Position numbers and translations under genes: made by a program. From the NCBI RefSeq assembly GCF_001975725.1, contig NZ_CP019434.1:496001-560000 (forward strand): 64,000 nt of DNA, given 5' to 3'. The stretch comes from Acidihalobacter ferrooxydans (GTDB taxonomy: Bacteria; Pseudomonadota; Gammaproteobacteria; DSM-5130; Acidihalobacteraceae). Below the pieces are notes generated by a model, which saw only the letters and a list, made by a program, of their open reading frames with translations, did no database searches and was not told the DNA's origin. Shown in pieces: positions 17,097-38,648 of this stretch (the first letter of the stretch is position 1; each line of letters starts with the position of its first letter).

Positions 17097-18281
17097 TCAT
17101 CGTGCCACCATGCCGTTCCCGGCCCCGAGGCGGGGCATCTCCTGGCGCACGATGTCCCAGATGAAGCCGGCCAGCTCACGGGCGATCGCCACGCACACCC
17201 GTTTGACGTTCTTGCCCGCCTGGGTCAGGGTGCGGTAGCGGCCACAGAGTCTTTTCTGTGCCCGCCAGGCGATCGCCTTGGCCTGTTCCGGGGCCGCTTT
17301 GGCCTTGCGTTTGAGGTGCATCGTCTGACGCGCCGGGAACCGATAGCTCCAGGCACACTCCACCAGCATGCGGCGCGCATGGGCATGGCCGGTCGGGGGG
17401 ATCGCGCCGTGGCGGCGTCGGCGGCCGCGGCGGTGTTCACTCGGCACGCGCCCCGGGGAGGCCATGAGCTGTGTGGGTGACTCGAAGCGGCTGAGATCGC
17501 CAAGCTCCGCCAACAGCACGATGGCGGCCAGTGTGTCGATGCCGCGCAAGGCCACCAGCGCATCCACCACCGGGGCCAATGACCAGTTCGGCAGGGCCTG
17601 CATCAATTGGGCGGTAAGATCGGCCACGCGTCGAGAGGCGGCCTTGACCGCGTCGATGTACTCCTGCAGCACCACCTGCAGCCAGGGTTGTTCGAAGCGG
17701 ATCGATGCCATCCAGTTGAAGTGGGTCGCCGTCCAGCGTGTCTTGCCCGTGGGCCAGTGATGCCCGTGGCGCAACAAAAATCCGTTGAGCTGCTGGCGTG
17801 CCTTGCGCTCCTGACCCTTCATGTCGTCCCGCGCCCGCGTCAGATCCCGCATCGCTTCCTGCTCGGCGTCCGGCACCCACACCGGCGTCAGTTCGCCAGC
17901 CCGTAACAGCCGCGCCAGCTTCAGCGCATCACGCCGGTCGGTCTTGACCCGCTCGCCCGCCTTCTTCGGAATCAGCGAAGGCGCCACCACCTGACAGTCA
18001 TGCCCCGCCGCGACCAGCCGCCGATACAATCCGTAACCACACGGGCCGGCCTCATAGCAAAACTGCAACAAGGCGCCCTCGAACTCGGCGCTCAGGCGAT
18101 CCAGCCATCGGCTCACCTTCTTCGGCTCATGGGCGATCTCTCCCCGGTACAGGGGTTCATCGCGCCCTGGCAGGGCGACCGCCACCGCAATCGTGTCCTT
18201 GTGAACGTCCAGTCCGACGTAGGCGGCATATCGCTCCGTCACGATCGGTGCCGAAGTCTGGTTTGCGCTATCCTCTTTCAT
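17097..18281 (-). CDS. IS110-family transposase (DEDD RuvC-like plus Tnp_20 domains)
   Basis: A 394-residue recombinase. The N-terminal RuvC-like domain contains YVGLDVHKDTIAVAV (first Asp), FCYEAGPCGYGLYRRL (Glu) and VKTDRRDALKLARLLRAGEL (the paired Asp of the DEDD tetrad). The C-terminal IS116/IS110/IS902 domain contains ALRGIDTLAAIVLLAELGDL and FESPTQLMASPGRVPSEH, including a serine in the position used for strand cleavage in this family. GAGGAGG stands just upstream of the ATG. No frameshift or stop is seen, so the enzyme may be active. Confidence 0.95.
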   Translation of the reverse strand: MKEDSANQTSAPIVTERYAAYVGLDVHKDTIAVAVALPGRDEPLYRGEIAHEPKKVSRWLDRLSAEFEGALLQFCYEAGPCGYGLYRRLVAAGHDCQVVAPSLIPKKAGERVKTDRRDALKLARLLRAGELTPVWVPDAEQEAMRDLTRARDDMKGQERKARQQLNGFLLRHGHHWPTGKTRWTATHFNWMASIRFEQPWLQVVLQEYIDAVKAASRRVADLTAQLMQALPNWSLAPVVDALVALRGIDTLAAIVLLAELGDLSRFESPTQLMASPGRVPSEHRRGRRRRHGAIPPTGHAHARRMLVECAWSYRFPARQTMHLKRKAKAAPEQAKAIAWRAQKRLCGRYRTLTQAGKNVKRVCVAIARELAGFIWDIVRQEMPRLGAGNGMVAR

Positions 18282-23668: not shown

Positions 23669-24367
23669 ATGGCGGGTTATCAGGATGCAGCCGCGCGCAT
23701 TGCCGCGCGTATCGCCTCCGGCATGCTGATGCCCGGGATGCAGCTCGGTTCCGAACGCCAGCTCAGCGAAGAACTGGCGGTTTCCCGCCTCACGCTACGC
23801 GCAGCACTGACCAAGCTGGAGGCGGACGGACTGATCTACGGTATGAGCCGGCGCGGCTGGTTTGTCAGCCCGCCGCGCTTCGTGTACGAACTCGACCGCC
23901 GTGCCAATTACATGTTGATGGCCGCGGCGCAGGGGCGCGCTGCGCGCATCGAACTGCTCGACGCGGGCCGCGCGCCCGAGAAGCATGTCCCCGCCTGCAT
24001 GCGCGAACAGGCGACGACCCGCGCTTTTCATCTGCGGCGCGTGCGCCAACTCGATGGCCGTCCTGTGATGTTCGAGACGATCCATCTGTCGGCCGCCGCC
24101 GTGCCGGATTTGCTGGCGCATAATCTGTCGGATTCGATCACCGCCTTGCTGGCCGACGAGTACCGTATCGAGATCGACCGCGAAGAAACCAGCGTACGCT
24201 CGTCCTTGCTCGACCCGGAACAGTCCGTGGCCCTGGCCGTTGCGCCGGCCACCCACAGCGTACTGATCGAGCGAAAGCGTTTTGCCTGCGGCCAGTTGGT
24301 CGAATTCGACAGTGAACATTGGCTGCCCGGTGCGATCGAAATCCGATTGAACGCCAAACTCCGATAA
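23669..24367 (+). CDS. GntR-family transcriptional regulator with UTRA effector domain (HutC/FarR subfamily)
   Basis: A 232-residue regulator. The N-terminal winged helix-turn-helix includes GMLMPGMQLGSERQLSEELA and VSRLTLRAALTKLEADGLIY. The C-terminal UTRA domain includes RAFHLRRVRQLDGRPVMFET near the middle and the closing segment RFACGQLVEFDSEHWLPGAI. UTRA domains bind small effectors such as sugar phosphates, phosphonates or histidine derivatives. It stands only 9 bases after pgi but about 380 bases before the catabolic genes, and a TGGTATAGACCA palindrome of the type bound by this subfamily lies in front of the dehydrogenase gene. I infer that it controls the locus downstream. Confidence 0.9.
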   Translation: MAGYQDAAARIAARIASGMLMPGMQLGSERQLSEELAVSRLTLRAALTKLEADGLIYGMSRRGWFVSPPRFVYELDRRANYMLMAAAQGRAARIELLDAGRAPEKHVPACMREQATTRAFHLRRVRQLDGRPVMFETIHLSAAAVPDLLAHNLSDSITALLADEYRIEIDREETSVRSSLLDPEQSVALAVAPATHSVLIERKRFACGQLVEFDSEHWLPGAIEIRLNAKLR

Positions 24368-24749
24368 ACCCGGAGAATCCATCAGGCGGGTCTCCCTTGC
24401 CTGATTCTTGAATCCAGATCCCTGCTCCATCATCACCCCGTCTCACGGATCATCTGGGATAACCGCCATGCTCATTTGAGTGCGGCGCGTCTTTTCATCG
24501 CACCATGAATGTGCCGCGTACCCGCGTTGTCTGTTGCGGAGGGGCGGTAAAATACTTATAACTTGTTATTTTTAAAAGAAATACATGCTTTGGCATGAAT
24601 CTTCCTAAGTGTTTTGGTATAGACCAGATACAAGCCGGACGATTCGAGATGCGAAACCAGGGTTTACCGATGATTTTTTCACCGATTGCGAGTTCGTGTT
24701 TCTCGTCTCCTTCGGCTTCAGGCAACCGTTTACCGCAAGGAGACGCTTC
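24368..24749 (+). promoter_or_regulatory. Regulatory region of the amino-alcohol locus
   Basis: A 382-base gap without a credible gene, with an A+T-rich stretch (TTATTTTTAAAAGAAATACAT around 24565-24585) unlike its surroundings. It contains the operator-like palindrome at 24615-24626 and the strong ribosome-binding site CAAGGAGA in front of the dehydrogenase start. Promoter elements probably lie between 24540 and 24630. I did not identify a riboswitch. Confidence 0.55.
24615..24626. promoter_or_regulatory. Candidate GntR/UTRA operator TGGTATAGACCA
   Basis: TGGT-ATAG-ACCA is a dyad of the form known for HutC-subfamily GntR regulators (for example NagR/DasR-type TGGTNTAGACCA sites). It overlaps TATAGA, which could be a -10 box. 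It is the only such site noticed in the window and lies about 125 bases before the dehydrogenase ATG. Confidence 0.55.
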
Positions 24750-25523
24750 ATGATCAATTCCCGCACCGTCCTGGTGACGGGCGCGACGCTTGGCATCGGC
24801 AAAGGCATTGCCAACGTGTTCGCCAAGAACGGCTACAACGTGGTCCTCTCAGCGCGCAATGCGGCGCACGGCGCTCAGGCCGAGCAGGACATCAAGGCCG
24901 CCTCTGGCAACGAAAAGGTATTGTTCGTCGCCGGTGACGTGACCCGTTTTGAATCGATGCGGCAGGTCGTCGCTACGGCGGTGGCGACCTTCGGCGGTCT
25001 GGACGTGTTGTGCGCCAATGCGGGTATGTTTCCCTCGGCCAAGCTGGATGCGATGACCGAGCAGGAGTGGGACGACATCTTCGCGGTCAATGTGAAGGGC
25101 ATGCTGTTCAGCGTGCAGGCCGCGCTCGACGCGCTGCGCCAGAGCCCGGCCGGGCGCGTGGTCATCACCTCGTCGATCACCGGGCCGGTGACGGGTTTTC
25201 CCGGCTGGGCGCACTACGGCAGCACCAAAGCCGCTCAGCTTGGTTTCATGCGCACTGCGGCGATCGAACTGGCGCGCGATGGCATCACGGTCAACGCCGT
25301 ACTCCCGGGCAACATCTACACCGAAGGCCTGCAGGGAATGGGCGATGCCTATCTCGACAGCATGAAGGCCTCGATCCCGATGAAACGCTTGGGCGATGTC
25401 GAGGACATTGGCTATGCCGCCCTGTTCTTCGCCCAAGAGACGTCCGGTTACGTCACCGGGCAGTCGCTGATCGTGGACGGTGGCCAAATTTTGCCGGAAA
25501 CCCTGGAGGCAGTGGACGCCTGA
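24750..25523 (+). CDS. Short-chain dehydrogenase/reductase (SDR)
   Basis: A 257-residue classical SDR. It has the cofactor motif VTGATLGIGKGIA (TGxxxGxG) near residues 9-21, LCANAGMFPS, and the catalytic Ser in SSITGP. The YGSTK segment gives the catalytic Tyr and Lys, and the PG motif AVLPGNIYTEGL follows. The C-terminal YVTGQSLIVDGGQILPE is typical. SDRs oxidise or reduce alcohols and ketones with NAD(P). In this locus it may act on an amino alcohol or on the derived hydroxy compound. The start is the ATG at 24750 with AAGGAGA eight bases before it; it is followed 33 bases later by the PLP enzyme gene. Confidence 0.93.
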   Translation: MINSRTVLVTGATLGIGKGIANVFAKNGYNVVLSARNAAHGAQAEQDIKAASGNEKVLFVAGDVTRFESMRQVVATAVATFGGLDVLCANAGMFPSAKLDAMTEQEWDDIFAVNVKGMLFSVQAALDALRQSPAGRVVITSSITGPVTGFPGWAHYGSTKAAQLGFMRTAAIELARDGITVNAVLPGNIYTEGLQGMGDAYLDSMKASIPMKRLGDVEDIGYAALFFAQETSGYVTGQSLIVDGGQILPETLEAVDA

Positions 25524-25556: not shown

Positions 25557-26864
25557 ATGATGCTAGAAACTTCGATGGCGAACAGTGTCGCCGCACCAGG
25601 CAGCGCAATAGAACGCAGCGCCCGCAAGCAGGACATTCTCGACAAATCGATCCAGTACTGGAACCCGGGCAAAACCCGCTTCTGGCAGTCGGTGGGCATT
25701 GATCTGGTGATAGGCAAGCGCGAGGGCTACTGCCTATACGACATGGATGGAAAGCGGTTGATCGATGTGCATCTCAACGGCGGCACCTACAACCTCGGCC
25801 ATCGCAATCCCGAGCTTGTGCAGACGCTGGCTGATGCGCTGCGGGAGTTCGATATTGGCAACCATCATTTCCCGTCGATCGCCAGAGCCGAATTGGCCGA
25901 GAAGCTGGTGCGATATTCGCCGGACGGGCTGGACCATGTGATCTATGCCAGTGGCGGCGGCGAGGCGATCGACATTGCACTCAAATCGGCGCGTTACGCA
26001 ACCGGCAAACGCAAGATCGTTTCGTTGGAGAAGTGTTACCACGGCCATACGGGGCTGGCGGTAGCCACCGGCGACCCGCGATTTTCGCAGATGTTCCTTT
26101 CCGAAGGGCGGGCGGACGATTTCGTCAAGGTGCCATTCAACGATCTTACGGCAATGGAGGCCGCTCTCGCGAGCGGCGACGTGGCAGCGGTGATTATCGA
26201 GAGCATTCCGGCGACCTACGGTTTCCCGCTGCCGCAGCCTGGCTATCTGCAAGGCGTGCGCGAACTGTGTACCCGCCACGGCGCGTTGTACGTTGCTGAC
26301 GAAGTGCAGACCGGGCTGGGGCGCACGGGTAGCCTGTGGTGCGTCGACACCTATGGTGTTACGCCCGACTTGCTGGTGACCTCCAAGGGCCTGAGCGGCG
26401 GGCTGTATCCGATCGGTGCGGTGCTGGTGAACGCGCGCGCCGGGGGCTGGATGGACGAGGACGGTTTCGGTCATATGTCCACCTTTGGCGGCGCGGAACT
26501 GGGCTGCCGTGTGGCCTCGGCAGTGCTGGACATTTCGATGCGGCCCGAAGTGGTCGAGAACGTGCGTCGAATGAGTACCTATTTCAACGAGCAATTGCAG
26601 GGTATCCAGGCCGAAAGCGGCGGTTTTCTCACTGAAATCCGCCAGGCCGGGCTGGTCATGGGCCTGGGCTTCGACCATCCGCAGGGCGCCGTGTTCGTCA
26701 GCAGCGCGCTGTACCGCAACGGTGTGTGGGCAATTTTTTCCAGCCTCGATCCGCGCGTACTGCAGTTCAAACCGGGCATGCTGATCGACCAGCCGCTGGC
26801 CGACGAAGTGCTCGACATTCTGCGTCGCAGCGTACACGAAGCCAAGGCGGCGATTCCGGTATGA
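25557..26864 (+). CDS. Class-III PLP-dependent aminotransferase-fold enzyme, candidate amino-alcohol-phosphate phospho-lyase
   Basis: A 435-residue class-III fold-type-I PLP enzyme. It shows LIDVHLNGGTYNLGHRNPEL, the cofactor-phosphate loop ASGGGEAIDIALKSAR, the KCYHGHTGLAVATGDP aromatic stack region, YVADEVQTGLGRTG with the PLP-binding Asp, and the Schiff-base lysine in LVTSKGLSGGLYP. This class contains omega-aminotransferases and also the ethanolamine-phosphate phospho-lyases. The next gene, overlapping its stop by four bases, is an APH-fold kinase. That coupling is the reason to suspect a phospho-lyase rather than a transaminase; the residues visible do not decide it. Confidence 0.85.
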   Translation: MMLETSMANSVAAPGSAIERSARKQDILDKSIQYWNPGKTRFWQSVGIDLVIGKREGYCLYDMDGKRLIDVHLNGGTYNLGHRNPELVQTLADALREFDIGNHHFPSIARAELAEKLVRYSPDGLDHVIYASGGGEAIDIALKSARYATGKRKIVSLEKCYHGHTGLAVATGDPRFSQMFLSEGRADDFVKVPFNDLTAMEAALASGDVAAVIIESIPATYGFPLPQPGYLQGVRELCTRHGALYVADEVQTGLGRTGSLWCVDTYGVTPDLLVTSKGLSGGLYPIGAVLVNARAGGWMDEDGFGHMSTFGGAELGCRVASAVLDISMRPEVVENVRRMSTYFNEQLQGIQAESGGFLTEIRQAGLVMGLGFDHPQGAVFVSSALYRNGVWAIFSSLDPRVLQFKPGMLIDQPLADEVLDILRRSVHEAKAAIPV

Positions 26865-27883
26865 CCACCATGCTACACCGGGCGTCACCCGTCTCGGACG
26901 ACGATCTGGCGTCGATCGACGCCGCCGTGCCGGGCAATTTATGGCGCTGGGGATTTTCCGAAGCCGCGCGAGCGCGGCTACTCAATCACTCGGAAAATAC
27001 CACCTATCGGATCGACGAGGGTGACCGGCGCTGCATCCTGCGCGTACACCGCGTCGGCTACCATACGCCGCAGGCGATAGCCACCGAGCTCGAATGGCTG
27101 GCGGCGATCGACCGCGATACCGATATTCCGATTGCGATGCCGATTCCGGGGGCGAACGGTGGGTTTATCCAGCCGTTCGATACTCGGCAGGGGGTGCAAC
27201 GCTACGCCGTGCTGTTCGAATTTCTCGATGGCGAGGAGCCGAACGAGTCGCACGATCTGCCGGTTTCGTTCCAACAGCTTGGCGCGATCACTGCGCAGTT
27301 GCATGCGCACAGCCGCGAGTGGCCGCATGACGGCCGTCGTTTGCTGCGGCCAGTCTGGGACTTCGAGCATACCCTGGGCGCCAATCCAATCTGGGGTGAT
27401 TACCGGCACGGTACCGGCGTGACACCGGCTATCGCCGATCATATCGGGCAGGGCGCTGCCCGCCTGCGCCGTCGACTAGAGCGTTACGGCGCCGGTCCCG
27501 AGCGCTTCGGGTTGATCCATGCCGATCTGCGATTGGCTAACCTGCTGCTGACGCAGGATGGTCGGGTTGGTGTCATCGATTTCGACGACTGCGGATACGG
27601 CTGGTTCATGTACGACCTCGGTAGCGCGCTGAGTTTTATCGAGCACAAGCTCTACGTGCCGGAACTGATCGAAGCCTGGGTGCGCGGTTACGAAAGCGTG
27701 CGAGCGCTTGCGGATGCGGATCTAGACATGCTGTCGAGCTTCGTTCTACTGCGCCGCATCGTGCTGCTCGGTTGGCTGGGTTCACACCGCGAAACCGAAC
27801 TTGCCAGACAGATCGGGCAAGACTACGCGCCACAGACTTGCGAGCTGGTGAGCCGTTACCTGTTCGCGGAAAGCGTTTTTTGA
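26861..27883 (+). CDS. APH-fold small-molecule kinase (choline/ethanolamine/homoserine-kinase-like)
   Basis: A 340-residue aminoglycoside-phosphotransferase-superfamily protein. It shows SENTTYRIDEGDRRCILRVHR (nucleotide-loop and lysine-like region), the catalytic LIHADLRLANLLL (Brenner-type HxDxxxxN) near residue 222, and the metal-binding VGVIDFDDCGYGWFMYDLGS. Such kinases phosphorylate hydroxyl groups of small amines or amino acids. The ATG overlaps the stop of the PLP enzyme gene, so stoichiometric production with it is likely. I propose phosphorylation of an amino alcohol, followed by elimination by the neighbour. Homoserine-kinase-like or RdoA-like protein-kinase roles are alternatives. 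Confidence 0.85.
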   Translation: MTTMLHRASPVSDDDLASIDAAVPGNLWRWGFSEAARARLLNHSENTTYRIDEGDRRCILRVHRVGYHTPQAIATELEWLAAIDRDTDIPIAMPIPGANGGFIQPFDTRQGVQRYAVLFEFLDGEEPNESHDLPVSFQQLGAITAQLHAHSREWPHDGRRLLRPVWDFEHTLGANPIWGDYRHGTGVTPAIADHIGQGAARLRRRLERYGAGPERFGLIHADLRLANLLLTQDGRVGVIDFDDCGYGWFMYDLGSALSFIEHKLYVPELIEAWVRGYESVRALADADLDMLSSFVLLRRIVLLGWLGSHRETELARQIGQDYAPQTCELVSRYLFAESVF

Positions 27884-27897
27884 CCGGAGCCCCCTGC

Positions 27898-29406
27898 ATG
27901 AGCGCACGTCAGAAAAAATCGTCCGACGCTGTCTTCAGGGACCGCCTGTTCATCGGGGGTCGCTGGGTCGATGCGGTCGGCGGCGGGCGCCTGCCGGTCA
28001 TTGATCCGGCGACGGAAGAGACGATTCACGAGGTGCCGGCCGCGGATGCGGCGGATGTCGACCGTGCGGTGACCGCCGCGCGTGGGGCGTTCGATGGCGG
28101 ATGGGGCGGGAGTAGCGGCGCCTGCCGCGCCGAATATCTGCGCAACATCGCCGCCGCGATCCGCGCGCGGCGCGACGAACTGGCGCGGGTCGAGGTGCGG
28201 GACAACGGCAAGCCGCTGCCAGAAGCGCGGTGGGACATCGATGACACCGCGGACTGTTTCGAATACTACGCCGAGCTGGCCGAGGAACTGGACGGGCGCC
28301 AGGGTGAGGCAGTGGATGTAGGTACAGCGGATTTTCGTTCGACGGTGCGCTACGAACCGGTCGGCGTGGTCGGGCAGATTATTCCCTGGAACTACCCGAT
28401 GCTGATGGCGGCGTGGAAGCTCGCGCCGGCGCTGGCTGCGGGCGCCACCTGTGTGCTCAAGCCGTCCGAGCTGACGCCGCTGACCGCGCTGGAATACGGT
28501 GCTATTGCCGAAGAGATCGGGCTGCCGCCCGGCGTGCTGAACGTGCTGACCGGCACGGGCGCCGATGCCGGCGCGCCGCTATCGCGGCATTCTGATGTGG
28601 ATAAGCTGGCGTTTACCGGCAGTGTGCCGACCGGGATGCGGGTCATGACTGCCGCAGCGCAGGATATCAAGAACGTCAGCCTGGAGCTGGGCGGCAAGTC
28701 GCCATTTATCGTGTTCGAGGACGCCGACGTCGAACAGGCTGTCGAATGGATCATGTTCGGCATTTTCTGGAATCAGGGCGAGGTGTGCAGCGCCACCTCG
28801 CGTCTGCTGGTGCATGAGGACATCGCCCCGGCCTTGTTGGCGCGTCTGAAGGAAGAGGCCGAGCGGCTGCCGATCGGCAATGGCTTCGATCCTGGTGTGT
28901 TGCTCGGGCCGCTGGTCAGTGAGGGCCAATATCGCAAAGTGCGGGGCTTCATCGAGGACGGTCTGATCGCGGGCGCGACTGTGCTCACTGGCGGCGACCG
29001 GCCCGTCGGGCTGGAGCGCGGCTACTTCCTGCAGCCGACGGTTTTCACCGACGTGCGCGAGGACATGCGCATCTGGCGCGAGGAGATTTTCGGCCCGGTG
29101 CTGTGCGTGAAAACCTTCGGCAACGAAAGCGAGGCGCTGCGCCTGGCGCACGCCACCGACTACGGTCTGGCGGCAGCAGTGATGTCCGCTGGTCTCGAAC
29201 GGTGCGAACGCGTCGCCGCTGCACTGCGCGCTGGCATCGTATGGATCAACTGCTCACAGCCCACCTTCACCCAGGCGCCCTGGGGCGGCATGAAACAAAG
29301 CGGTATTGGCCGCGAGCTGGGCCGCTGGGGATTGCACAACTATCTGGAAGTAAAGCAGATCACGCGCTATCAAAGCGCCCGGCCGTGGGGTTGGTATCTC
29401 AAATGA
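27898..29406 (+). CDS. NAD(P)-dependent aldehyde dehydrogenase, aminoaldehyde/betaine-aldehyde type
   Basis: A 502-residue ALDH. It has the NAD-binding PWNYPMLMAAWKLAPALAAG, the general-base region SLELGGKSPFIVFEDAD (catalytic Glu), and the catalytic cysteine in WNQGEVCSATSRLLVHE. The C-terminal end is APWGGMKQSGIGRELGRWGL. The CSATSR context with preceding WNQGE resembles the ALDH9/ALDH10 aminoaldehyde and betaine-aldehyde dehydrogenases. It would oxidise the aldehyde produced by the preceding enzymes to the acid. Start ATG at 27898, 14 bases after the kinase stop. Confidence 0.92.
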   Translation: MSARQKKSSDAVFRDRLFIGGRWVDAVGGGRLPVIDPATEETIHEVPAADAADVDRAVTAARGAFDGGWGGSSGACRAEYLRNIAAAIRARRDELARVEVRDNGKPLPEARWDIDDTADCFEYYAELAEELDGRQGEAVDVGTADFRSTVRYEPVGVVGQIIPWNYPMLMAAWKLAPALAAGATCVLKPSELTPLTALEYGAIAEEIGLPPGVLNVLTGTGADAGAPLSRHSDVDKLAFTGSVPTGMRVMTAAAQDIKNVSLELGGKSPFIVFEDADVEQAVEWIMFGIFWNQGEVCSATSRLLVHEDIAPALLARLKEEAERLPIGNGFDPGVLLGPLVSEGQYRKVRGFIEDGLIAGATVLTGGDRPVGLERGYFLQPTVFTDVREDMRIWREEIFGPVLCVKTFGNESEALRLAHATDYGLAAAVMSAGLERCERVAAALRAGIVWINCSQPTFTQAPWGGMKQSGIGRELGRWGLHNYLEVKQITRYQSARPWGWYLK

Positions 29407-29586: not shown

Positions 29587-30984
29587 ATGAGTGAAAGTAA
29601 ATCCACCACACCGGGCCTGAGCGCCACGCTGGGGCCGGTCGAAGCCTTCGGGCAGTCCATCGCCAACGTATCGCCCACCTTCACGCCGACACTAAACATT
29701 ACGGTCGTCGTCGCTTTCGCCGGGTTTCTGGCGTGGCCGTCGTACCTGATCGCCACGCTGGGCCTGTTTCTGGTCGCCTGGAGTATGGGCACGCTGGCCC
29801 GGCGCCATCCGACGTCAGGTTCGTTTTTCCTGTACATCGGCCGTAACTTCGGTCCGCTGTCCGGCATGCTGGCCGGCGCGGCGATGATCTCTGCGTATCT
29901 GTTCACCGGTATTGCCGTCATCATCGGTGCGGGCATTTTCCTCAACAACATGCTTGAGGCCATGGGGCTGGCCGTGCACGTGCCGCATTACCTTTTCTAC
30001 GCGGTGTTCACCGCCATTCTCGGCTACTTCGCCTACCGCGATGTCAAGCTGTCCTCGCGCCTGGCGCTGATCCTAGAAGCCCTGTCGGTAGTCATCATCA
30101 CCGCCGTGGTCATCGCCGCCGTGGTGCATCACGGCACACTGATCGATCCGCAGCAGTTCTCCTTCAACCTCGCCGACATGAGCAAGGTCGGTCCGGCGAT
30201 GGCCTTTGCAATCTTCTCCTTCGTCGGTTTCGAGAGTGCGGCCACCTTGTCCAAGGAAATCAAGGATCCCTCGCGCAGCGTGCCGTTTATCATCCGTGCC
30301 ACGCCGGTGGTGGCCGGGCTGTTCTTCGCGGTCATTGCGTATCTGATGATTCTGGCTTCGGGCGACAACGTGAAACTGCTCGGTTCCAGCGCGGCGCCGC
30401 TGGTCGACATCACCCGTTCGCTGGGCGTCACCTGGCTGGCCGCGGTGATCTACGCCGCAGCCTTTCTGGCGGCCTTCTCCTGTGCGCTGGCCTCGCTCAA
30501 TGCCGCCTCACGTCTGATCTACTCAATGGGCCGCTACCGCTTCGTGCACAGCTCGATGGGCGCGGTGCACGCCAATCACGGTACGCCGCACTTCGCACTC
30601 GGTGTCGGCGCGGCGGTCATGCTGGTGGTCTGCGAAGCACTGGTGCCGGCCGCCCCGCTGAACGCCTTCGGCTGGACCGGCACCTATGCCGCCTTCGGTT
30701 TCGTGCTGGTGTATCTGGGCGTGGCTCTGGCCGGCGTACGCGAGGCGTTCCAGTTCGGCACGACAGGCACGCGCAAGGCGGTGGACAGTGTGCTCGGCAT
30801 CGGTGGCGCGCTGATCATGGCCTACGTGCTTTACGGCAGCCTCTACCCGGCGCCGGCCTATCCCTTCAACCTGCTGCCCTATCTGTTCGCCGCTTCATTG
30901 CTGGTCGTGGCGGGCTGGTACGTGGTGCTCAAGACCCGCGTGCCGCAGGTGTTGGCCGGCATCTCCACGATGGACCTCGACTGA
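29587..30984 (+). CDS. APC-superfamily amino acid/amine permease (first of two)
   Basis: A 465-residue polytopic membrane protein with about 12 hydrophobic segments. The first begins LGPVEAFGQSIANVSPTFTPT, a typical TM1 of the amino-acid-polyamine-organocation superfamily. A conserved FSFVGFESAATLSKEIKDPSR lies in the TM6-TM7 region. Substrates of the family include ethanolamine (Eat-type), polyamines and amino acids. It is preceded by a 180-base gap and a good ribosome-binding site (TTAGGAGAC), and followed after a strong stem-loop by the phosphatase-kinase fusion. Uptake of the substrate catabolised by the locus is the likely role. Confidence 0.92.
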   Translation: MSESKSTTPGLSATLGPVEAFGQSIANVSPTFTPTLNITVVVAFAGFLAWPSYLIATLGLFLVAWSMGTLARRHPTSGSFFLYIGRNFGPLSGMLAGAAMISAYLFTGIAVIIGAGIFLNNMLEAMGLAVHVPHYLFYAVFTAILGYFAYRDVKLSSRLALILEALSVVIITAVVIAAVVHHGTLIDPQQFSFNLADMSKVGPAMAFAIFSFVGFESAATLSKEIKDPSRSVPFIIRATPVVAGLFFAVIAYLMILASGDNVKLLGSSAAPLVDITRSLGVTWLAAVIYAAAFLAAFSCALASLNAASRLIYSMGRYRFVHSSMGAVHANHGTPHFALGVGAAVMLVVCEALVPAAPLNAFGWTGTYAAFGFVLVYLGVALAGVREAFQFGTTGTRKAVDSVLGIGGALIMAYVLYGSLYPAPAYPFNLLPYLFAASLLVVAGWYVVLKTRVPQVLAGISTMDLD

Positions 30985-31038: not shown

Positions 31039-32775
31039 ATGATGGCGGAAGCGGAAATTTCGATTGACGCATGGGCGAGCGAGGAATCCACTGCTTCCGC
31101 GCTCGACCCGACTCGGCACGGCGGCCTGGCCGTTGCCGCCGGGTTTGCCTCGCGCCAGGCGACGCAGCACGCCCTGAACGAGGACTTTTTCGGCGCGGTG
31201 GCCGGCCGTGGCGCCGCAGCCGGCACGCGCGGCAGCGTCTGGGCGCTGGCCGACGGCATGGGTGGCACACGTGGCGGGCGCGTCGCTGCCGAACTGGCGG
31301 TGCGCGGTTTCCTCGAAGGCTATTACCAGACGCCGGCAACCCTGAGCCCGCCGCGTGCGGCCGCGCGCGCGCTGGAATCCGTCAATCGTTGGCTGTATGC
31401 CCAGGGTCGGACGGATCCCGAACTGCGTGATATGGGCGCCGCCTTTGCGGCATTGGTTCTGCGCGGCCGGCAGGCCTACCTGATCGCAGCCGGCGACGTG
31501 CGGCTATACCGGCTGCGCGGCGGGCACGTGCAGCAGATCGGCGAGGACCATGTGGTGCCGACACCGCAAGGCTGGCTACTGGCGCGCGCGGTGGGTTTGG
31601 AGCGCAGCCTGATCGTGGAGGCGATCGAAGTGGACGTGGAAGTGCATGATCGTTTTCTGCTGTGCAGCGACGGTGCCTACCGCGATCTGTCGGTATCGCG
31701 TCTGCGCAGCCTGCTGGCCGAAGCTGACCCGCAAGATGCCGCACGCAGCGTGGTAGCCAGCGCGGTTCTGGCCGGCAGCCGTGACGACGCGAGCGCGGCG
31801 GTGATCGACGTACTTGGTTTGCCGGAACTCGATGTTCGCTATCTCGAACGTCTGATCGGCAGTCTGCCGATCGAATCCGCGCCAGCCGCCGGCGCAACCG
31901 TCGACGGCTATAGCCTGCACAGCATACTGCACGAGGGGCCGTACAGCCGCGTGTTTCTCGCCACGGACGCGGCGGGTACGCGTTGCGTGGTGAAATTCCC
32001 GCTGCCGAATGCGGAGCGCGACGAAAACATCCGGCGCGCTTTTGTGCGCGAGGGCTGGATTGCCGCGCATTTGCGCACGCCGTGGAGCGTCGCGCCGTTG
32101 TGGGACGAAGCGGAGCGTCGCAGTCGGCTGTATCTGGTGTTGCCCTATCTGGAGGGGGAAAGCCTGGAGCAGCGCCTGCACCGGTCGGTGGGGCTGGCCG
32201 AGGGGTTGCGCATCGCCGGGCAGCTAGCGCGTGCAGTGGATGCGCTCAACCGGCATCAGGTCTATCACCGCGACATCAAGCCCGACAACGTGTACCTGAC
32301 CGCAGGCGGTGAATTGCGCCTGCTCGATCTTGGCCTGGCACGACTGGCCGGCGTGCTCGATCCGGCGCCGGTCGACGTGCCCGGCACGCCGAGCTATATG
32401 GCGCCGGAGCTGGTGCGCGGCGCGCCGGGCGACGCGCGTTCGGAAGTTTTCGCCTACGCCGTCACGCTATATCGAATGTTTGCCGGCGGCGCGTTCCCCT
32501 ATGCGCTGCGCGGCCGCGCCAATCTGCGCCGGCACCGGCCTGACCTGCCGCCAGCCTTCGACCGTATTTTCGCCAAAGCTCTGGCCGACGATCCCGAGCA
32601 GCGCTATCAGGATGTGCTGGAAATGGATTACGAGCTCGAATATGCCGCGGCACATGCACCTCGGACATCGTCTCGCGACGACCGCAGCCTGTACGCGCGC
32701 AATCCCGTGCTGGTGTGGCAGTTGCTCAGCGCCGCGCTCGCGGCAGCATTGCTGGGGATGCTGCTATGGCATTGA
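31039..32775 (+). CDS. PP2C phosphatase - Ser/Thr protein kinase fusion with C-terminal membrane anchor
   Basis: A 578-residue three-part protein. Residues about 30-265 form a PP2C-type phosphatase (NEDFFGAV, WALADGMGGTRGG, AAGDVRLYRLRGG, LLCSDGAYRDLS, GSRDDASAAVI, with the metal Asp residues). Residues about 290-540 form an Hanks-type kinase (CVVKFPL lysine, YHRDIKPDNVYL catalytic loop, LLDLGLARL with DLG in place of DFG, GTPSYMAPELV). A single transmembrane helix ends the chain (VWQLLSAALAAALLGMLLWH). Such phosphatase-kinase fusions often sit beside transporter genes. Here the gene lies between two APC permease genes, suggesting reversible phosphorylation of the transporters or a co-encoded enzyme. 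That role is inference. Confidence 0.92.
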   Translation: MMAEAEISIDAWASEESTASALDPTRHGGLAVAAGFASRQATQHALNEDFFGAVAGRGAAAGTRGSVWALADGMGGTRGGRVAAELAVRGFLEGYYQTPATLSPPRAAARALESVNRWLYAQGRTDPELRDMGAAFAALVLRGRQAYLIAAGDVRLYRLRGGHVQQIGEDHVVPTPQGWLLARAVGLERSLIVEAIEVDVEVHDRFLLCSDGAYRDLSVSRLRSLLAEADPQDAARSVVASAVLAGSRDDASAAVIDVLGLPELDVRYLERLIGSLPIESAPAAGATVDGYSLHSILHEGPYSRVFLATDAAGTRCVVKFPLPNAERDENIRRAFVREGWIAAHLRTPWSVAPLWDEAERRSRLYLVLPYLEGESLEQRLHRSVGLAEGLRIAGQLARAVDALNRHQVYHRDIKPDNVYLTAGGELRLLDLGLARLAGVLDPAPVDVPGTPSYMAPELVRGAPGDARSEVFAYAVTLYRMFAGGAFPYALRGRANLRRHRPDLPPAFDRIFAKALADDPEQRYQDVLEMDYELEYAAAHAPRTSSRDDRSLYARNPVLVWQLLSAALAAALLGMLLWH

Positions 32776-32843: not shown

Positions 32844-34208
32844 ATGACGCAGTTACGACGTAATCTGGGTTTGATCGAAGCGGTCGGGCTGTCGCTGTCG
32901 ATCGTGGCGCCGACCATGGCGATGGCTTTCAATGTAACGCTGGCGGCTGGCGCCGCAGGTACAGCGGCCCCGCTGGCCTTCGCCGTCGGCACGTTGGCGA
33001 TGGCCGTTGTCGGGCTGTCTTTCGTGGCCTTTGCACGCCGCGTATCGCATGTCGGTTCGGCCTATGCCTACATCACCAAGGCGTTTGGCCCGCGCGCCGG
33101 GTTCGTGACCGGCTGGGCATTGATGCTCACCTATCTGGCCTATGGCACGGGTACTGCGGCGCTGGTGGGTAATTTTTTCGGTGCCGCGCTGGAGAACTAT
33201 CATGTGTTAATTCCTCATCTGTGGCTGACAGCGGGCGTGGCGACTGTCATGCTGGCGATGTGGCTGGCCTATCGCGACATGCAGCTTGCAGCACGCCTGA
33301 TGCTGGGGCTGGAAATCGTGTCTGTATGTGCGATTCTCGTGCTTGGCGTCCTGGTGCTACACGGGGTGAGCGCCAGCGGCGGACTGTCGATGGCGCCCTT
33401 CAAGCCGGATGCGCATTTCGGCTGGTCGGGCATTGGCCACGCCATGGTGTTCGCGGTGCTGTCTTTCGCCGGATTCGAAGGCGCCGCAACCCTGGGCGAG
33501 GAGACCGGCAATCCGAACCGGGCGATTCCGCTGGCCGTGCTCGGCACAGTGGTGCTGGCGGGTTTGTTCTACGTATTCGCTTCGTACGTGCAGGTGGTGG
33601 GCTACGGTCTGGGCGACATGCAGGCCCTGGCCAATGCGAGCGCACCACTGAACACGCTGGCTTTAAAGTTTGCTTCGCGTGATTTCGCCACGATCCTGGA
33701 CCTCGCGGCAGGCATCTCCGCGTTCGCCTGCGCGCTGGGTAGTTTGAGCGCGGCATCCCGCATGCTCTTCGCGCTGGGCCGCATCGGACTGGCGCCAGCC
33801 GTCTGCAAAGCTCACCCGCGCTACGGCACACCCGGTGCCGCCGTGCTGACGATGGGTGCGCTGATGATCGCAGGTCTGGTGTTGTGGGCGCCTGCTGTCG
33901 GCGCCGGTGACTACTATGGCGATGTCGGTACCATCGGTACTTTGGCGTTGATTCTGGTCTATATGGGCGTGGCGTCTGCCGAAGCGGTCGAGGCCGTGCG
34001 GACAAGCCGGTTTATGTGGGCGCTGTTCGGCGCGCTTGGCGCCGCGATCCTGCTGTGGCCGCTGTACGGTTCCGTCTACCCGGTGCCGGTGTTTCCGGGC
34101 AATTTGTGGCCCTATGTTGTCGTCGCCTATCTGGTGTTGGGCGTCGCGTTGATTCTGGTGCGTCCGGCGATCGGCCGGGCGGCGCTCGCCGAACTTCAAC
34201 CCAGATAA
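32844..34208 (+). CDS. APC-superfamily amino acid/amine permease (second)
   Basis: A 454-residue polytopic membrane protein beginning LGLIEAVGLSLSIVAPTMAMAF with the APC TM1 pattern and carrying VLSFAGFEGAATLGEETGNP in the equivalent TM6-7 position. It is a clear paralogue of the first permease of this locus. I chose the ATG at 32844 (preceded by AGAGGG) because the homologous start is close to TM1; the frame is open upstream to 32715. The two permeases flank the kinase-phosphatase fusion, so they may serve related substrates or form an import/exchange pair. Confidence 0.92.
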   Translation: MTQLRRNLGLIEAVGLSLSIVAPTMAMAFNVTLAAGAAGTAAPLAFAVGTLAMAVVGLSFVAFARRVSHVGSAYAYITKAFGPRAGFVTGWALMLTYLAYGTGTAALVGNFFGAALENYHVLIPHLWLTAGVATVMLAMWLAYRDMQLAARLMLGLEIVSVCAILVLGVLVLHGVSASGGLSMAPFKPDAHFGWSGIGHAMVFAVLSFAGFEGAATLGEETGNPNRAIPLAVLGTVVLAGLFYVFASYVQVVGYGLGDMQALANASAPLNTLALKFASRDFATILDLAAGISAFACALGSLSAASRMLFALGRIGLAPAVCKAHPRYGTPGAAVLTMGALMIAGLVLWAPAVGAGDYYGDVGTIGTLALILVYMGVASAEAVEAVRTSRFMWALFGALGAAILLWPLYGSVYPVPVFPGNLWPYVVVAYLVLGVALILVRPAIGRAALAELQPR

Positions 34209-34394
34209 TCCATCAGAAGAGCCACCGTTGCTTGATTGTGAATTCACTTGAAAATTTTCTGCGCTCAGGCTTAGCGCCACTACGCCGCTCGCTCAGAGTC
34301 TTCCCTGTGAATTCAAATCTCCGCGCAATCATCACCTCGCCTAATGGAATATCTGGGTTCAATCGACCATTGTCATGAACAAGGATATTGACAC
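34209..34394 (+). promoter_or_regulatory. Likely promoter region of the glutamine-synthetase-like gene
   Basis: 186 bases, more A+T-rich than the genes around it, with GTGAATTCACTTGAAAATTTTCTGC and a second TGTGAATTCAAAT about 70 bases on. The pair of GTGAATTCA motifs (34239-34247 and 34309-34317) is notable. AAGGATA precedes the next ATG. Confidence 0.4.
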
Positions 34395-35657
34395 ATGAAA
34401 ACCGAACCACTCGTGTTCGCCGGTGTTTGCGACTGGGCCGGCCTGGTGCGCGGCAAGGCATTCCCCGCCGCCGATCTCGCCAGTCGGCTCAAAAAAGGCG
34501 TGGGGCTGACGCACTCCAATATCATGATGTCTCCTTTCGGACCGATCTACACCACGCCGTTCGGCACGGCGGGTGATCTGATTATTCGCCCCGATCCCGA
34601 TGTGCGCGTGGAAGTGCCTTTTGACGACGGCACGGCGGAGCGTTTCTACCTCGGCGATATCGTCAACACCGACGGTTCGCCGTGGGACTTCTGCCCGCGC
34701 ACCTTTGTTCGCCGTGCGCTGGACGGACTCGCCGAGCACGATCTGCGTCTGGTCGCCAGCTTCGAGCAGGAATTCGTACTCACTGGTGTAGATGACCGCC
34801 CAGGCGCAACCTATGCACTCGACGCCTTCCGTCGCCAGGGCGATTTCGGCGAAAAGCTGATGGGGGCGATGCGAGAGGCGGGTTTCGCGCCCGACAGTTT
34901 TCTGCCTGAGTACGGCCCGCGCCAGTACGAGGCGACGCTGCATCCTGAAGAGGGCGTGCGTGCGGCGGACGCCGCCGTGGTGCTGCGTGAGATGGCACGC
35001 GCCGTTGCCTGGCGCAGCGACATGCGCGCGATTTTCGCGCCGATGCTGGAGCCGGAGGGTATCGGCAACGGCACGCACGTCCATCTGAGCCTGTGGCGCG
35101 GCGATACGCCAGTCACCCACGATCCAGGCGCACCGCATGGCATCGCGGCTGATGCGGCGGCGTTTTTTGCCGGTGTGCTTGCGCATCTGCCGGCGATCGC
35201 CGCCTTCAGTGCACCGTCGGTCGCGTCCTACTACCGTCTGACGCCGAACCGTTGGGCGCCGGTACACGCCAACCTCGGCGTGCAGGATCGCGGTGCCGCG
35301 CTACGCGTCGCGCCGCTGTTCGCCGCCGCGCAGGAGGAGCCGGCACGCCAGTTCAACGTGGAGTTCCGCGTAGCGGATGCGTCGGCGTCTCCGTACCTGG
35401 CACTTGGGGCGCTCGTATGGGCCGGTCTCGACGGACTCGAACGCGGCTTGGCGCTGCCGAGCGTAGGCGAGGAAACGCCGTTGTTGCCGCGTTCCCTGGA
35501 AGAGGCGCTCGCCGCGCTGGAAACCGATGCCGTGGCTCGAGGCTGGTGGTCGCAGGAAGCGATGGCGGCGTATCTGTCCTTCAAGCGTGCGGAGATCGCC
35601 GCCCTCAGTGGTTTGAATGCCGACGAAATCTGTTCACGTTACGCCCAAGTCTATTGA
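34395..35657 (+). CDS. Glutamine-synthetase-family gamma-glutamyl-amine ligase (PuuA / gamma-glutamylethanolamide-synthetase-like)
   Basis: A 420-residue GS-superfamily protein. Visible are SFEQEFVL (metal-binding glutamates), the PEYGPRQYEATLHP glutamate-binding region, GNGTHVHLSLW (ATP/metal His), SYYRLTPNRWAPVHANLGVQ, and the late NVEFRVADASASPYLALGAL. It lacks the adenylylation-loop region and the length of true GlnA (about 470). Relatives ligate glutamate to putrescine, ethanolamine, isopropylamine or anilines. Given EutBC in the same locus, gamma-glutamyl-ethanolamide formation is a reasonable guess. It heads a tight group with the next two genes. Confidence 0.88.
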   Translation: MKTEPLVFAGVCDWAGLVRGKAFPAADLASRLKKGVGLTHSNIMMSPFGPIYTTPFGTAGDLIIRPDPDVRVEVPFDDGTAERFYLGDIVNTDGSPWDFCPRTFVRRALDGLAEHDLRLVASFEQEFVLTGVDDRPGATYALDAFRRQGDFGEKLMGAMREAGFAPDSFLPEYGPRQYEATLHPEEGVRAADAAVVLREMARAVAWRSDMRAIFAPMLEPEGIGNGTHVHLSLWRGDTPVTHDPGAPHGIAADAAAFFAGVLAHLPAIAAFSAPSVASYYRLTPNRWAPVHANLGVQDRGAALRVAPLFAAAQEEPARQFNVEFRVADASASPYLALGALVWAGLDGLERGLALPSVGEETPLLPRSLEEALAALETDAVARGWWSQEAMAAYLSFKRAEIAALSGLNADEICSRYAQVY

Positions 35658-35669
35658 TTGAGGGAACCC

Positions 35670-36437
35670 ATGGCACTTCTGGAAGACGACGAACCCGGCC
35701 CGGTGCGGATACAGCGCGAAGCTGCCACCAGCCCTTTTCTGTTGACCGCCGACCATGCGGGCAACCGCATTCCGCGCGCGCTCGGCGATCTCGGACTGGA
35801 TGCCACGGAGCGCGTGCGCCATATCGCCTGGGACATTGGCATCGCCGGCGTGACCGAGCGACTGTCGGCACTGCTCGGTGCGACGGCGGTGCTGCAGACC
35901 TATTCGCGCCTGGTCATCGACTGCAACCGCCAGCCGTCTTCGCCGAGCGCATTTCCCGAGGTTTCCGAAACCACGCCGGTGCCCGGCAACCGGGGTCTGA
36001 CTGAGGCACAGCGCAGGGTACGGCGAGAGGCGATCTTCGATCCTTACCATGGCGCGATCGCGGCGCAGCTCGACCAGCGCAAGGTGGCGGGGCAGCGCAC
36101 GCTGTTCGTCGCGCTGCACAGCTTCACGCCGGTTTTCAAGGCAGTGGCGCGGCCGATGCAGGTGGCGCTGTTGTACGATCGGGCGCCGCGGTGCGCCAAA
36201 CGAATGGCCGAGCTGCTGCGCGCGGAGGATAACCTGACGGTGGCCGAGAATGAACCCTACCGCGTGAGCGACGCCTCGGATTACACCGTGCCCGTGCACG
36301 CCGAGGGCCGTGGTCTCGACTACGTGCTGATCGAGATTCGCCAGGATCAACTGGCTGATGCGGCCGGGCAAAGCGTCTGGGCCGAACGCTTGGCCCGGCT
36401 GCTGCCGGTCGTGGCCACCGAACTGGAGGATGCATGA
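35670..36437 (+). CDS. N-formylglutamate amidohydrolase-family protein
   Basis: A 255-residue member of the FGase family. Conserved features are SPFLLTADHAGNRIPRALGD, WDIGIAGVTERLS, TYSRLVIDCNRQPSSPSAFP, ALHSFTPVF, and DYVLIEIRQDQL near the end. The family hydrolyses N-formyl-glutamate, but many members are uncharacterised amidases. Here it lies 12 bases after a gamma-glutamyl ligase gene and overlaps the next hydrolase gene, so it may cleave a gamma-glutamyl or N-acyl intermediate. ATG at 35670 follows GAGGGAA. Confidence 0.88.
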   Translation: MALLEDDEPGPVRIQREAATSPFLLTADHAGNRIPRALGDLGLDATERVRHIAWDIGIAGVTERLSALLGATAVLQTYSRLVIDCNRQPSSPSAFPEVSETTPVPGNRGLTEAQRRVRREAIFDPYHGAIAAQLDQRKVAGQRTLFVALHSFTPVFKAVARPMQVALLYDRAPRCAKRMAELLRAEDNLTVAENEPYRVSDASDYTVPVHAEGRGLDYVLIEIRQDQLADAAGQSVWAERLARLLPVVATELEDA

Positions 36438-37084
36438 AGGACTTCGGGCTTTCGCGCGACGTGCCGGTGCGCAAGGGCATGACCGCGCTGCTGTTCGTGG
36501 ACGTGCAGAACTACTCCGCCGAGGACGGCGGCGAATACGCGGGGCTCGACGCGGCGACGCGCGAAGAACGCTATGGGTATTTCTTCCGCGAAATGCGCAC
36601 GCGCGCCCTGCCCAATATGCAGCGGTTGCAGCAGGCCTGCCGGACGGCGGGCGTCGAAGTGATGTACACGGTGATCGAAAGTCTGACGCTGGACGGCCGC
36701 GACATGGGGCTGGACTACAAGATTTCCGGCCTGTTCTGTCCGAAAGGCTCGCGCGACGCGCAGGTGCTGGAGGCTATCATGCCGGTCGAGGACGAAATAA
36801 TCATTCCGAAGACTTCGTCCTCGCCGTTCATTTCGACCAACCTTCACTACGTCCTCGGCAATCTGGGCGTGAAGCATCTGATCGTGTGCGGCGTGCTGAC
36901 CGATCAGTGTGTCGATTCGACAGTGCGCGATGCCTGCGATCATGGCTACCTGGTGACGTTGGTCACCGATGCCTGCGCAACGCACAGCGAGGAGCGCCAG
37001 CACCATTCACTGGCGAACAATCACGGCTACTGCCGTCAGCTCGCCACCGATGCGCTGATCGCCGAACTGGCGGCGCTGTCCTGA
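36434..37084 (+). CDS. Isochorismatase-family cysteine hydrolase
   Basis: A 216-residue cysteine hydrolase. The catalytic triad is visible: Asp in LLFVDVQNYSAEDGG, Lys in IIPKTSSSPF, and Cys in GVLTDQCVDSTVRDACD, with the preceding non-proline turn CGVLTD. The C-terminal THSEERQHHSLANNHGY is typical of ureidoacrylate/biuret/nicotinamidase-like amidohydrolases. It starts inside the stop of the N-formylglutamate-amidohydrolase-like gene (ATGA). In this operon it is probably an amide hydrolase acting on a product of the ligase; the substrate is unknown. Confidence 0.9.
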   Translation: MKDFGLSRDVPVRKGMTALLFVDVQNYSAEDGGEYAGLDAATREERYGYFFREMRTRALPNMQRLQQACRTAGVEVMYTVIESLTLDGRDMGLDYKISGLFCPKGSRDAQVLEAIMPVEDEIIIPKTSSSPFISTNLHYVLGNLGVKHLIVCGVLTDQCVDSTVRDACDHGYLVTLVTDACATHSEERQHHSLANNHGYCRQLATDALIAELAALS

Positions 37085-37256: not shown

Positions 37257-38648
37257 ATGAGCGTATACACGCATACCGTCGGTAGCGTGAACTACCGTTT
37301 TGGCGGACTGCGCGAACTGCTCGCCAAGGCTTCCCCGCTGCACTCAGGCGATCAACTCGCCGGGCTGGCAGCGGGGTCTGCGGTGGAGCGGGTGGCGGCA
37401 CAACGGGCCTTGGCGGACGTTCCGCTCAGCGCATTCCTCGAGGATGTGCTGATTCCCTACGAGAGCGATGAAGTCACTCGCCTGATCCTGGATACGCACG
37501 ACGAGGCGGCCTTCGCGCCGGTTGCGCATCTCACCGTCGGCGGTTTCCGTGATTGGCTGCTGTCCTACGATGTCGATGCCGCAGTGCTGACGCGGCTGGC
37601 CCCGGGGCTGACGCCGGAAATGGTGGCGGCGGTATCCAAGCTCATGAGCCTGCAGGATCTGGTGTTGGTGGCGAGCAAGTGCGAGGTCATCACGCGTTTT
37701 CGCAATACCATCGGTCTCAAGGGCCGGCTGGCAACGCGCCTGCAGCCTAATCACCCGACCGACGATCCGCGCGGCGTGGCCGCCGTCATGCTCGACGGGC
37801 TGCTCTACGGCAGCGGCGATGCGGTTATCGGCATCAATCCGGCCAGCGATCATCTGCGCACGCTGACCACACTGCTGAAACTGATCGACGAGGTGCGCGA
37901 AACCTACCGCATTCCGACGCAGTCCTGCGTGCTTACGCACGTCACCAGCCAGATTGAGGCGATCGCGCGCGGCGCGCCGGTGGATCTGGTGTTCCAGTCC
38001 ATTGCCGGCACCGAGGCCGCCAACACCGGCTTTGGCATCAGCCTCCCGCTGCTCGCCGAGGCGCGCGAAGCGGCGCTGTCGCTCAAGCGTGGCACGTTGG
38101 GCGACAACGTCATGTACTTCGAGACCGGGCAGGGCAGCGCGCTGTCGGCCAATGCGCATCACGGCGTCGACCAGCAGACCTGCGAGGCGCGCGCCTACGC
38201 CGTAGCGCGAGAGTTTTCACCGCTGCTGGTCAACACCGTGGTCGGCTTCATCGGCCCGGAATATCTCTACGACGGCAAGCAGATCATCCGTGCCGGCCTG
38301 GAAGACCACTTTTGTGGCAAGCTGCTCGGCCTGCCGATGGGCTGTGACGTGTGCTACACCAATCACGCCGAGGCCGATCAGGACGACATGGATGCGCTGC
38401 TCACGCTGCTCGGCGCGGCCGGCTGTACTTATATCATGGGTATCCCCGGCGCCGACGACATCATGCTCAACTACCAGAGCACGTCCTTTCATGACGCGCT
38501 GTATCTACGCCAGACCTTCGGCTTGCGCCCGACGCCCGAGTTCGAGGCGTGGCTGGAGGAAATGCGTATCTTCGATGGCGCCACGCACTTGCTGCCGGTC
38601 GGCAACCAGCATCCCTTGCTCAGTCACCATTTGGCGGAGTGCGGATGA
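37257..38648 (+). CDS. eutB: Ethanolamine ammonia-lyase heavy (large) chain
   Basis: The catalytic subunit of the adenosylcobalamin-dependent radical enzyme that converts ethanolamine to acetaldehyde and ammonia. The 463 residues follow EutB closely: VAAVSKLMSLQDLVLVASKC, ITRFRNTIGLKGRLATRLQP, NHPTDDPRGVAAVMLDGLLY, GDAVIGINPASD, DVCYTNHAEADQDDMDALLT and IMGIPGADDIMLNYQSTSFH. GGGAGAGG stands before the ATG. Ammonia and acetaldehyde formed this way could be processed by the aldehyde dehydrogenase and ligase of the locus. No shell proteins, EutA or cobalamin adenosyltransferase genes are present in the window. Confidence 0.97.
   Translation: MSVYTHTVGSVNYRFGGLRELLAKASPLHSGDQLAGLAAGSAVERVAAQRALADVPLSAFLEDVLIPYESDEVTRLILDTHDEAAFAPVAHLTVGGFRDWLLSYDVDAAVLTRLAPGLTPEMVAAVSKLMSLQDLVLVASKCEVITRFRNTIGLKGRLATRLQPNHPTDDPRGVAAVMLDGLLYGSGDAVIGINPASDHLRTLTTLLKLIDEVRETYRIPTQSCVLTHVTSQIEAIARGAPVDLVFQSIAGTEAANTGFGISLPLLAEAREAALSLKRGTLGDNVMYFETGQGSALSANAHHGVDQQTCEARAYAVAREFSPLLVNTVVGFIGPEYLYDGKQIIRAGLEDHFCGKLLGLPMGCDVCYTNHAEADQDDMDALLTLLGAAGCTYIMGIPGADDIMLNYQSTSFHDALYLRQTFGLRPTPEFEAWLEEMRIFDGATHLLPVGNQHPLLSHHLAECG

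Follow-up and report, generated by a model that had tools for sequence, protein, structure and literature searches.

Aminopropanol kinase and phospho-lyase activities were described in Pseudomonas and Erwinia by the biochemistry of the 1970s. At the level of genes, the RMM, or aminoacetone utilization microcompartment, of Mycobacterium and Rhodococcus is among the closest described systems. The function of the RMM locus was at first unknown; in Rhodococcus, an SDR homologous to the one described below turns amino-2-propanol into aminoacetone, and amino-2-propanol induces this SDR via a GntR protein (PMC4207490). For the RMM, transamination together with phosphorylation of lactyl-CoA was suggested by Ravcheev et al. 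(2019) (PMC6620236), and a passage of a later paper presents it, after Mallette and Kimber (2018), as a route from aminoacetone to propionyl-CoA (PMC8156839). The pairing of a kinase with a phospho-lyase is thus already known from the earlier RMM literature. The authors of the aminopropanol kinase paper reportedly also saw this pairing to be widespread outside shells. Here, we analyse a locus in which the two genes lie side by side within a 64-kb stretch of DNA, hereafter the window.

Organization of the operon

In agreement with the original prediction, a class-III PLP enzyme gene and an APH-fold kinase gene stand in tandem on the + strand. The first, at 25557-26864, encodes a class-III enzyme of PLP fold type I (PF00202, E 4e-77), placed in a clade termed W by tree, residues and gene context; the second, at 26861-27883, encodes an APH-fold kinase, predicted to act on an amino alcohol (PF01636, E 2e-29; 6ef6 by sequence and model). 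As called, the genes share the bases ATGA, the PLP stop TGA lying at 26862-26864 and the kinase start ATG at 26861-26863. However, the two genes are separated by gaps of 3-10 bp in relatives, and the true start of the kinase may therefore be a second ATG at 26870, in which case the genes do not overlap but stand 5 bp apart. The four-base overlap holds for the genes as called, and it was dropped as evidence: the conserved signal is the adjacency of the PLP and kinase genes, not their overlap. The PLP protein itself likely starts at window position 25560, the start MLET... being that of its relatives.

Upstream of the pair, a GntR/UTRA regulator of the HutC/PhnF/PhnR type is encoded at 23669-24367 (+ strand; PF00392 and PF07702), with a score against the PhnR model TIGR03337 of 172 bits, below the cut-off of 297. 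It is followed by a probable operator, TGGTATAGACCA, at 24615-24626 (no strand assigned), and by an SDR gene at 24750-25523 (+ strand). The operator is a perfect palindrome-type site and the sole match of TGGTNTANACCA in the 64-kb window, with 0 expected in shuffles; regulators of the HutC/PhnF group bind sites of this type. Downstream of the pair lie an aldehyde dehydrogenase gene at 27898-29406 (+ strand; PF00171) and a gene at 29587-30984 (+ strand; PF00324/PF13520) for an APC-family permease, probably for uptake of amino alcohols or amines. The aldehyde dehydrogenase is BADH-like (TIGR01804, 551 bits, under the cut-off of 669) and carries the Cys (GEVCS) and Glu (LELGG) of the hydrolytic, non-CoA type, whereas the organelle loci described below have an acylating enzyme. 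Two other members of the same family (L065 and L066) keep the order GntR-SDR-PLP-KIN-ALDH-APC unchanged in their genomes, at 45-80% identity: the regulator (63% identical), the aldehyde dehydrogenase (74%) and the permease (45%) have their counterparts at the same positions, and TGGTATAGACCA is found there at the same place.

Kinase and SDR point to aminopropanol

The best solved relative of the kinase is 6ef6, entitled "microcompartment-associated aminopropanol kinase", with an E-value of 4e-81 by sequence, the next match being at 1e-20. The predicted structure (pLDDT 87) superimposes on 6ef6 with a Z-score of 38.0 and an rmsd of 2.2 over 313 aligned residues at 44% identity, and the next entry in the fold search reaches a Z-score of 27.2. 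The protein therefore stands well apart from other APH kinases in sequence and in fold. It is clearly related to the aminopropanol kinase of known structure, and its predicted activity is of the same kind.

Similarly, the closest solved relatives of the SDR are 6ci8 and 6ci9 (E 2e-83, best of 330 matches), far above the FabGs. These structures are, we presume, the (S)-1-amino-2-propanol dehydrogenase encoded in the same M. smegmatis locus as the 6ef6 kinase, and the window protein is probably an (S)-1-amino-2-propanol dehydrogenase/aminoacetone reductase. SDR orthologues of 50-79% identity occur in clusters of kinase and phospho-lyase genes and are kept in most W clusters; their absence from some W loci counts against our main reading. 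Since the kinase is nearest 6ef6 and the SDR nearest 6ci8/6ci9, the likeliest substrate would be (S)-1-amino-2-propanol fed from aminoacetone, and not ethanolamine. No threonine dehydrogenase scored above its model cut-off in the whole genome, in which no obvious internal source of aminoacetone was found. An internal supply from threonine was therefore rejected, a result that counts against our main reading and suggests import of the substrate.

The PLP enzyme belongs to a clade apart from ETNPPL

The nearest solved relatives of the PLP enzyme are PigE, AstC, ArgD and YgjG. We compared the window-type clade W, of which 20 sequences were found, with the ETNPPL type, E, which holds the phospholyase 5g4i. 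In a tree of 37 sequences, W (13 rows) and E (12 rows, including 5g4i) each form one group with 100/100 support, apart from each other. Membership of ETNPPL/AGXT2L1, the descent originally predicted for this enzyme, is thus not borne out. Because a constraint joining W and E as sisters was not rejected (p 0.167), W is a distinct lineage that may yet have a distant common origin with E. A fold search with the PLP model (low confidence, pLDDT 66) returned dozens of class-III enzymes tied at Z-scores of 33-36 and so does not discriminate among them. The score against the PbfA model NF049939 is 200.5 bits, under the cut-off of 525.

Active-site residues were compared in 20 enzymes of W, 11 of E and 8 others of class III, with the sites named by the OAT numbering used for the family. 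The OAT-Arg413 site is Gln in 20/20 W and Lys or Arg in E; two residues further, the position is Lys in 20/20 W and Arg in 11/11 E, and never basic in the 8 other enzymes. W has an invariant Gln-x-Lys motif at the place where ETNPPL-type enzymes have Lys/Arg-x-Arg/Lys (VLKMRPP in 5g4i and VLKIKPP in 6tor). The OAT-Glu235 site is Thr or Ser in 20/20 W (T in the window enzyme) and Ser, Asn or Thr in E, and 18 of the 20 W sequences have His at the site of OAT Arg180. The omega-transaminase arginine is absent from its loop in W enzymes, which retain the PLP residues Lys277 and Asp248. With Q and T at the two sites, the window enzyme does not have the keto-acid-binding Arg and Glu required of the ArgD/OAT type. 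These residues argue against an ornithine-type keto-acid transaminase and fit a putative phosphate-binding pocket like that of ETNPPL. There are points against the phospho-lyase reading: some omega-transaminases likewise have no OAT-type Glu and Arg, and the enzyme is nearest to transaminases by sequence and by predicted fold (pLDDT 66).

W genes with kinases and in shell loci

A kinase gene is next to or fused with 14 of the 20 W genes (13 next, 1 fused) and in the same cluster in one further case. Two of the others are cut by contig ends and three have no kinase in view, namely two on rhizobial plasmids with a PF01663 phosphodiesterase and one divergent Burkholderia gene. On the two plasmids (L074:6700-9257 and L075:6718-9254), the phosphodiesterase and W genes are accompanied by a dipeptide-type ABC transporter, an arrangement that would suit delivery of the phosphorylated amine from a phosphodiester; since the phosphorylated substrate may differ, these two loci also count against the main reading. 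The fused case, in Marinobacter sp. F4216 (L018:6681-9011), joins the W PLP enzyme and the APH kinase in a protein of 776 aa (PF00202 and PF01636).

In nine genomes, the W gene lies directly before genes for a CoA-acylating-type aldehyde dehydrogenase and a complete set of BMC shell proteins (proteobacterial loci L090:6208-14613; L087, L088, L102-L105, L107 and L108). Where complete, these loci have the order SDR-kinase-PLP-ALDH-BMC-T-hypothetical-BMC-P-BMC-H-BMC-T. They also carry a PotD-type ABC transporter, and three are near a diol dehydratase. Identities with the R. jostii RMM locus are 83% for BMC-H, 72 and 67% for BMC-T, 49% for BMC-P and 46% for the aldehyde dehydrogenase; the PLP enzyme of R. 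jostii is of the E type (5g4i clade) and only 25% identical to that of the window. In A. fabrum, the same kinase and SDR are paired with an enzyme nearest 5g4i (E 1e-105) and human ETNPPL 6tor (1e-96). Moreover, the kinases of W and E interleave in a quick kinase tree, which forces at least two changes of partner. The strongest evidence for W as the probable catalyst of the same phospho-lyase step is this interchange of two PLP lineages, both within a single organelle and beside a single family of kinases. We give about even chances to the further proposal that W displaced the ETNPPL-type enzyme in proteobacterial organelles and shell-free operons, as a second, independently evolved class-III phospho-lyase lineage. 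If this is true, two distinct lineages of enzyme carry out one and the same chemistry in the organelle.

The more general idea that every neighbour of such a kinase is a phospho-lyase was rejected, the one in Tsukamurella being close to dialkylglycine decarboxylase.

Linkage to EutBC

The original prediction had placed a downstream aldehyde dehydrogenase and EutBC in the same locus, and both are found there, at 27898-29406 and 37257-39433. EutB, the large subunit of ethanolamine ammonia-lyase, is encoded at 37257-38648 (+ strand; NF011649, 726 bits, over cut-off) and EutC, the small subunit, at 38549-39433 (+ strand; NF003971, 333 bits, over cut-off), with a true start further in than the called 38549. 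Between the two modules, a gene at 31039-32775 (+ strand; PF13672 and PF00069) encodes a fusion of a PP2C phosphatase and a Ser/Thr kinase. A 55% identical orthologue lies between the permease and EutB in two same-family genomes (L112 and L113), where the linkage is kept and EutBC directly follows the fusion (L112:338-1987; L113:1265-2914). The aminopropanol-type operon is thus linked to EutBC in three genomes, and in all three the phosphatase-protein kinase fusion separates them; a control of amine catabolism by protein phosphorylation is possible. A second side-by-side case of both routes is a single cluster encoding EutB, EutC, a permease, a kinase and an ETNPPL-type enzyme (L069:3271-9313).

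In the window, four extra genes at 32844-37084, between the fusion and EutB, are absent from the two other genomes (G002 and G003). They encode a permease and glutamine-synthetase-like, N-formylglutamate amidohydrolase-like and isochorismatase-like proteins, possibly a gamma-glutamyl-amine module that was gained or lost. Elsewhere in the window, a transposase-like ORF at 17097-18281, presumably of the IS110 type as judged by its sequence, lies near a glycogen synthase-like gene.

A proposed route without a shell, and its alternatives

Taken together, these data make it very probable that the genes degrade a small amino alcohol through phosphorylation and subsequent loss of the phosphate, a pathway that other bacteria house in a protein shell. 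It is fairly probable, more specifically, that the operon serves to catabolise (S)-1-amino-2-propanol and aminoacetone without a shell, with W as the phospho-lyase. We observe the homologies, the clades, the active-site residues, the order of the genes and the operator shared with relatives, and from them we infer the reactions, their substrate and their direction. The permease would take up the amine, and the SDR would use NAD(P)H to convert aminoacetone and aminopropanol into each other. The kinase would then phosphorylate the hydroxyl at the expense of ATP. The PLP enzyme would form an aldimine with the amine, abstract the alpha proton and eliminate phosphate; the resulting enamine would hydrolyse, releasing propionaldehyde and ammonia, and no keto acid would take part. 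The BADH-like dehydrogenase would oxidise propionaldehyde to propionate without CoA, and probably also the acetaldehyde from the neighbouring EutBC, while the GntR regulator would act at TGGTATAGACCA. The earlier idea of an amino-alcohol kinase followed by a phospho-eliminating PLP enzyme and an aldehyde dehydrogenase is supported.

The shell families PF00936 and PF03319, which the RMM has, are absent from the locus. A search of the whole genome with PF00936 found matches only near 2.28 Mb, beside RuBisCO, CsoS2 and CsoSCA. As these sole shell genes are those of an alpha-carboxysome, a microcompartment for the operon in this genome was rejected, and the aminopropanol route would run without a shell. 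The alpha-carboxysome locus itself (G000:C1, about 2.28-2.29 Mb; L073 and L114) comprises the RuBisCO large subunit, CsoS2, CsoSCA and three BMC-H genes, and the host is probably able to fix CO2.

Were ethanolamine the main substrate, phosphoethanolamine would be converted to acetaldehyde in a B12-free bypass of the adjacent EutBC. The conserved linkage to EutBC in the family, the L069 cluster of both routes and an eat-type ethanolamine permease near another kinase/PLP pair all speak for this scheme, in which one aldehyde dehydrogenase could serve both routes. We nevertheless judge it unlikely, as it leaves without a role an aminopropanol dehydrogenase orthologue that most W clusters have kept, and the kinase has an aminopropanol kinase as its nearest relative. 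Of the earlier claim of a bypass, the B12-dependent EutBC alongside stands (linkage in L112/L113; L069) and ethanolamine as the main substrate probably does not; as kinase and SDR point to aminopropanol, what was called a "bypass of EutBC" probably runs in parallel to it and serves a related amino alcohol.

A rival to the phospho-lyase role is that the PLP enzyme is a class-III transaminase of the ordinary kind, with the amino alcohol or its ketone as substrate, the kinase acting elsewhere. Ravcheev et al. (2019) (PMC6620236) proposed such a role in the RMM/Aut, and Axen et al. (2014) (PMC4207490) considered it. Although the nearest solved relatives and the NCBIfam matches of the enzyme are transaminases, this role appears improbable given the loss of the OAT-type Arg413 and Glu235 sites in 20/20 W, the lack of an omega-type loop arginine, the fusion with the kinase in Marinobacter F4216 and the interchange with a phospholyase clade in the same organelle. 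In our estimate, it is very improbable that the enzyme acts as a lyase on an aminophosphonate or on some other phosphorylated amine (in the manner of PbfA or of a hydroxylysine-phosphate lyase), with the kinase preparing this substrate. The PhnR-like regulator suggests it, as do the phosphodiesterases beside two rhizobial W genes and the presence of PhnF and DUF1045 near one rhizobial W; but the PbfA score is far below cut-off (200 bits against 525), the kinase, SDR and aldehyde dehydrogenase match no known phosphonate route, and the operon is conserved together with the aminopropanol dehydrogenase orthologue.

Comparison with known systems

Under the aminopropanol reading, the locus puts definite genes to an aminopropanol pathway that Gram-negative bacteria would run without a shell, and W becomes a coherent, misannotated clade (called acetylornithine or generic aminotransferase) of probable phospho-lyases. 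It also allows two lineages of eliminating enzyme to be compared in the setting of the same kinase, dehydrogenase and organelle family, and one pathway to be compared inside a shell and outside it. No description of the W lineage, of its proteobacterial RMM-like loci or of the shell-free operon was found in a literature search whose scope excluded the kinase paper (PMC6314145) and the locus lists of the BMC catalog (PMC8217296); priority for the W lineage and the shell-free operon is not certain.

The RMM of Mycobacterium and Rhodococcus shares with the window an orthologous kinase and SDR, clustered in both with a GntR regulator, a permease, a class-III PLP enzyme and an aldehyde dehydrogenase. 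The window differs in having no shell, a hydrolytic rather than CoA-acylating aldehyde dehydrogenase and a PLP enzyme from another clade. The (S)-1-amino-2-propanol kinase of M. smegmatis (6ef6) has the same fold as the window kinase and 44% identity over 313 residues; the latter is not linked to a shell and is known here from its sequence and model. For the aminopropanol activities of Pseudomonas and Erwinia, the same sequence of reactions is proposed, a likeness in chemistry. A kinase and a class-III domain are also joined in the rhizobial fused kinase-phospholyases PRK06148 and PRK06149, but there the kinase comes first, whereas the PLP domain leads in the W fusion of Marinobacter F4216. 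Finally, the ETNPPL family (human 6tor and Arthrobacter A1RDF1, 5g4i) and W have in common the class-III fold, the absence of the OAT-type Glu and Arg, a basic residue two positions after the Arg413 site and the adjacency of the same kinase family, whereas W forms a separate, well-supported clade of about 25-30% identity to that family, with Gln-x-Lys in place of Lys-x-Arg/Lys.
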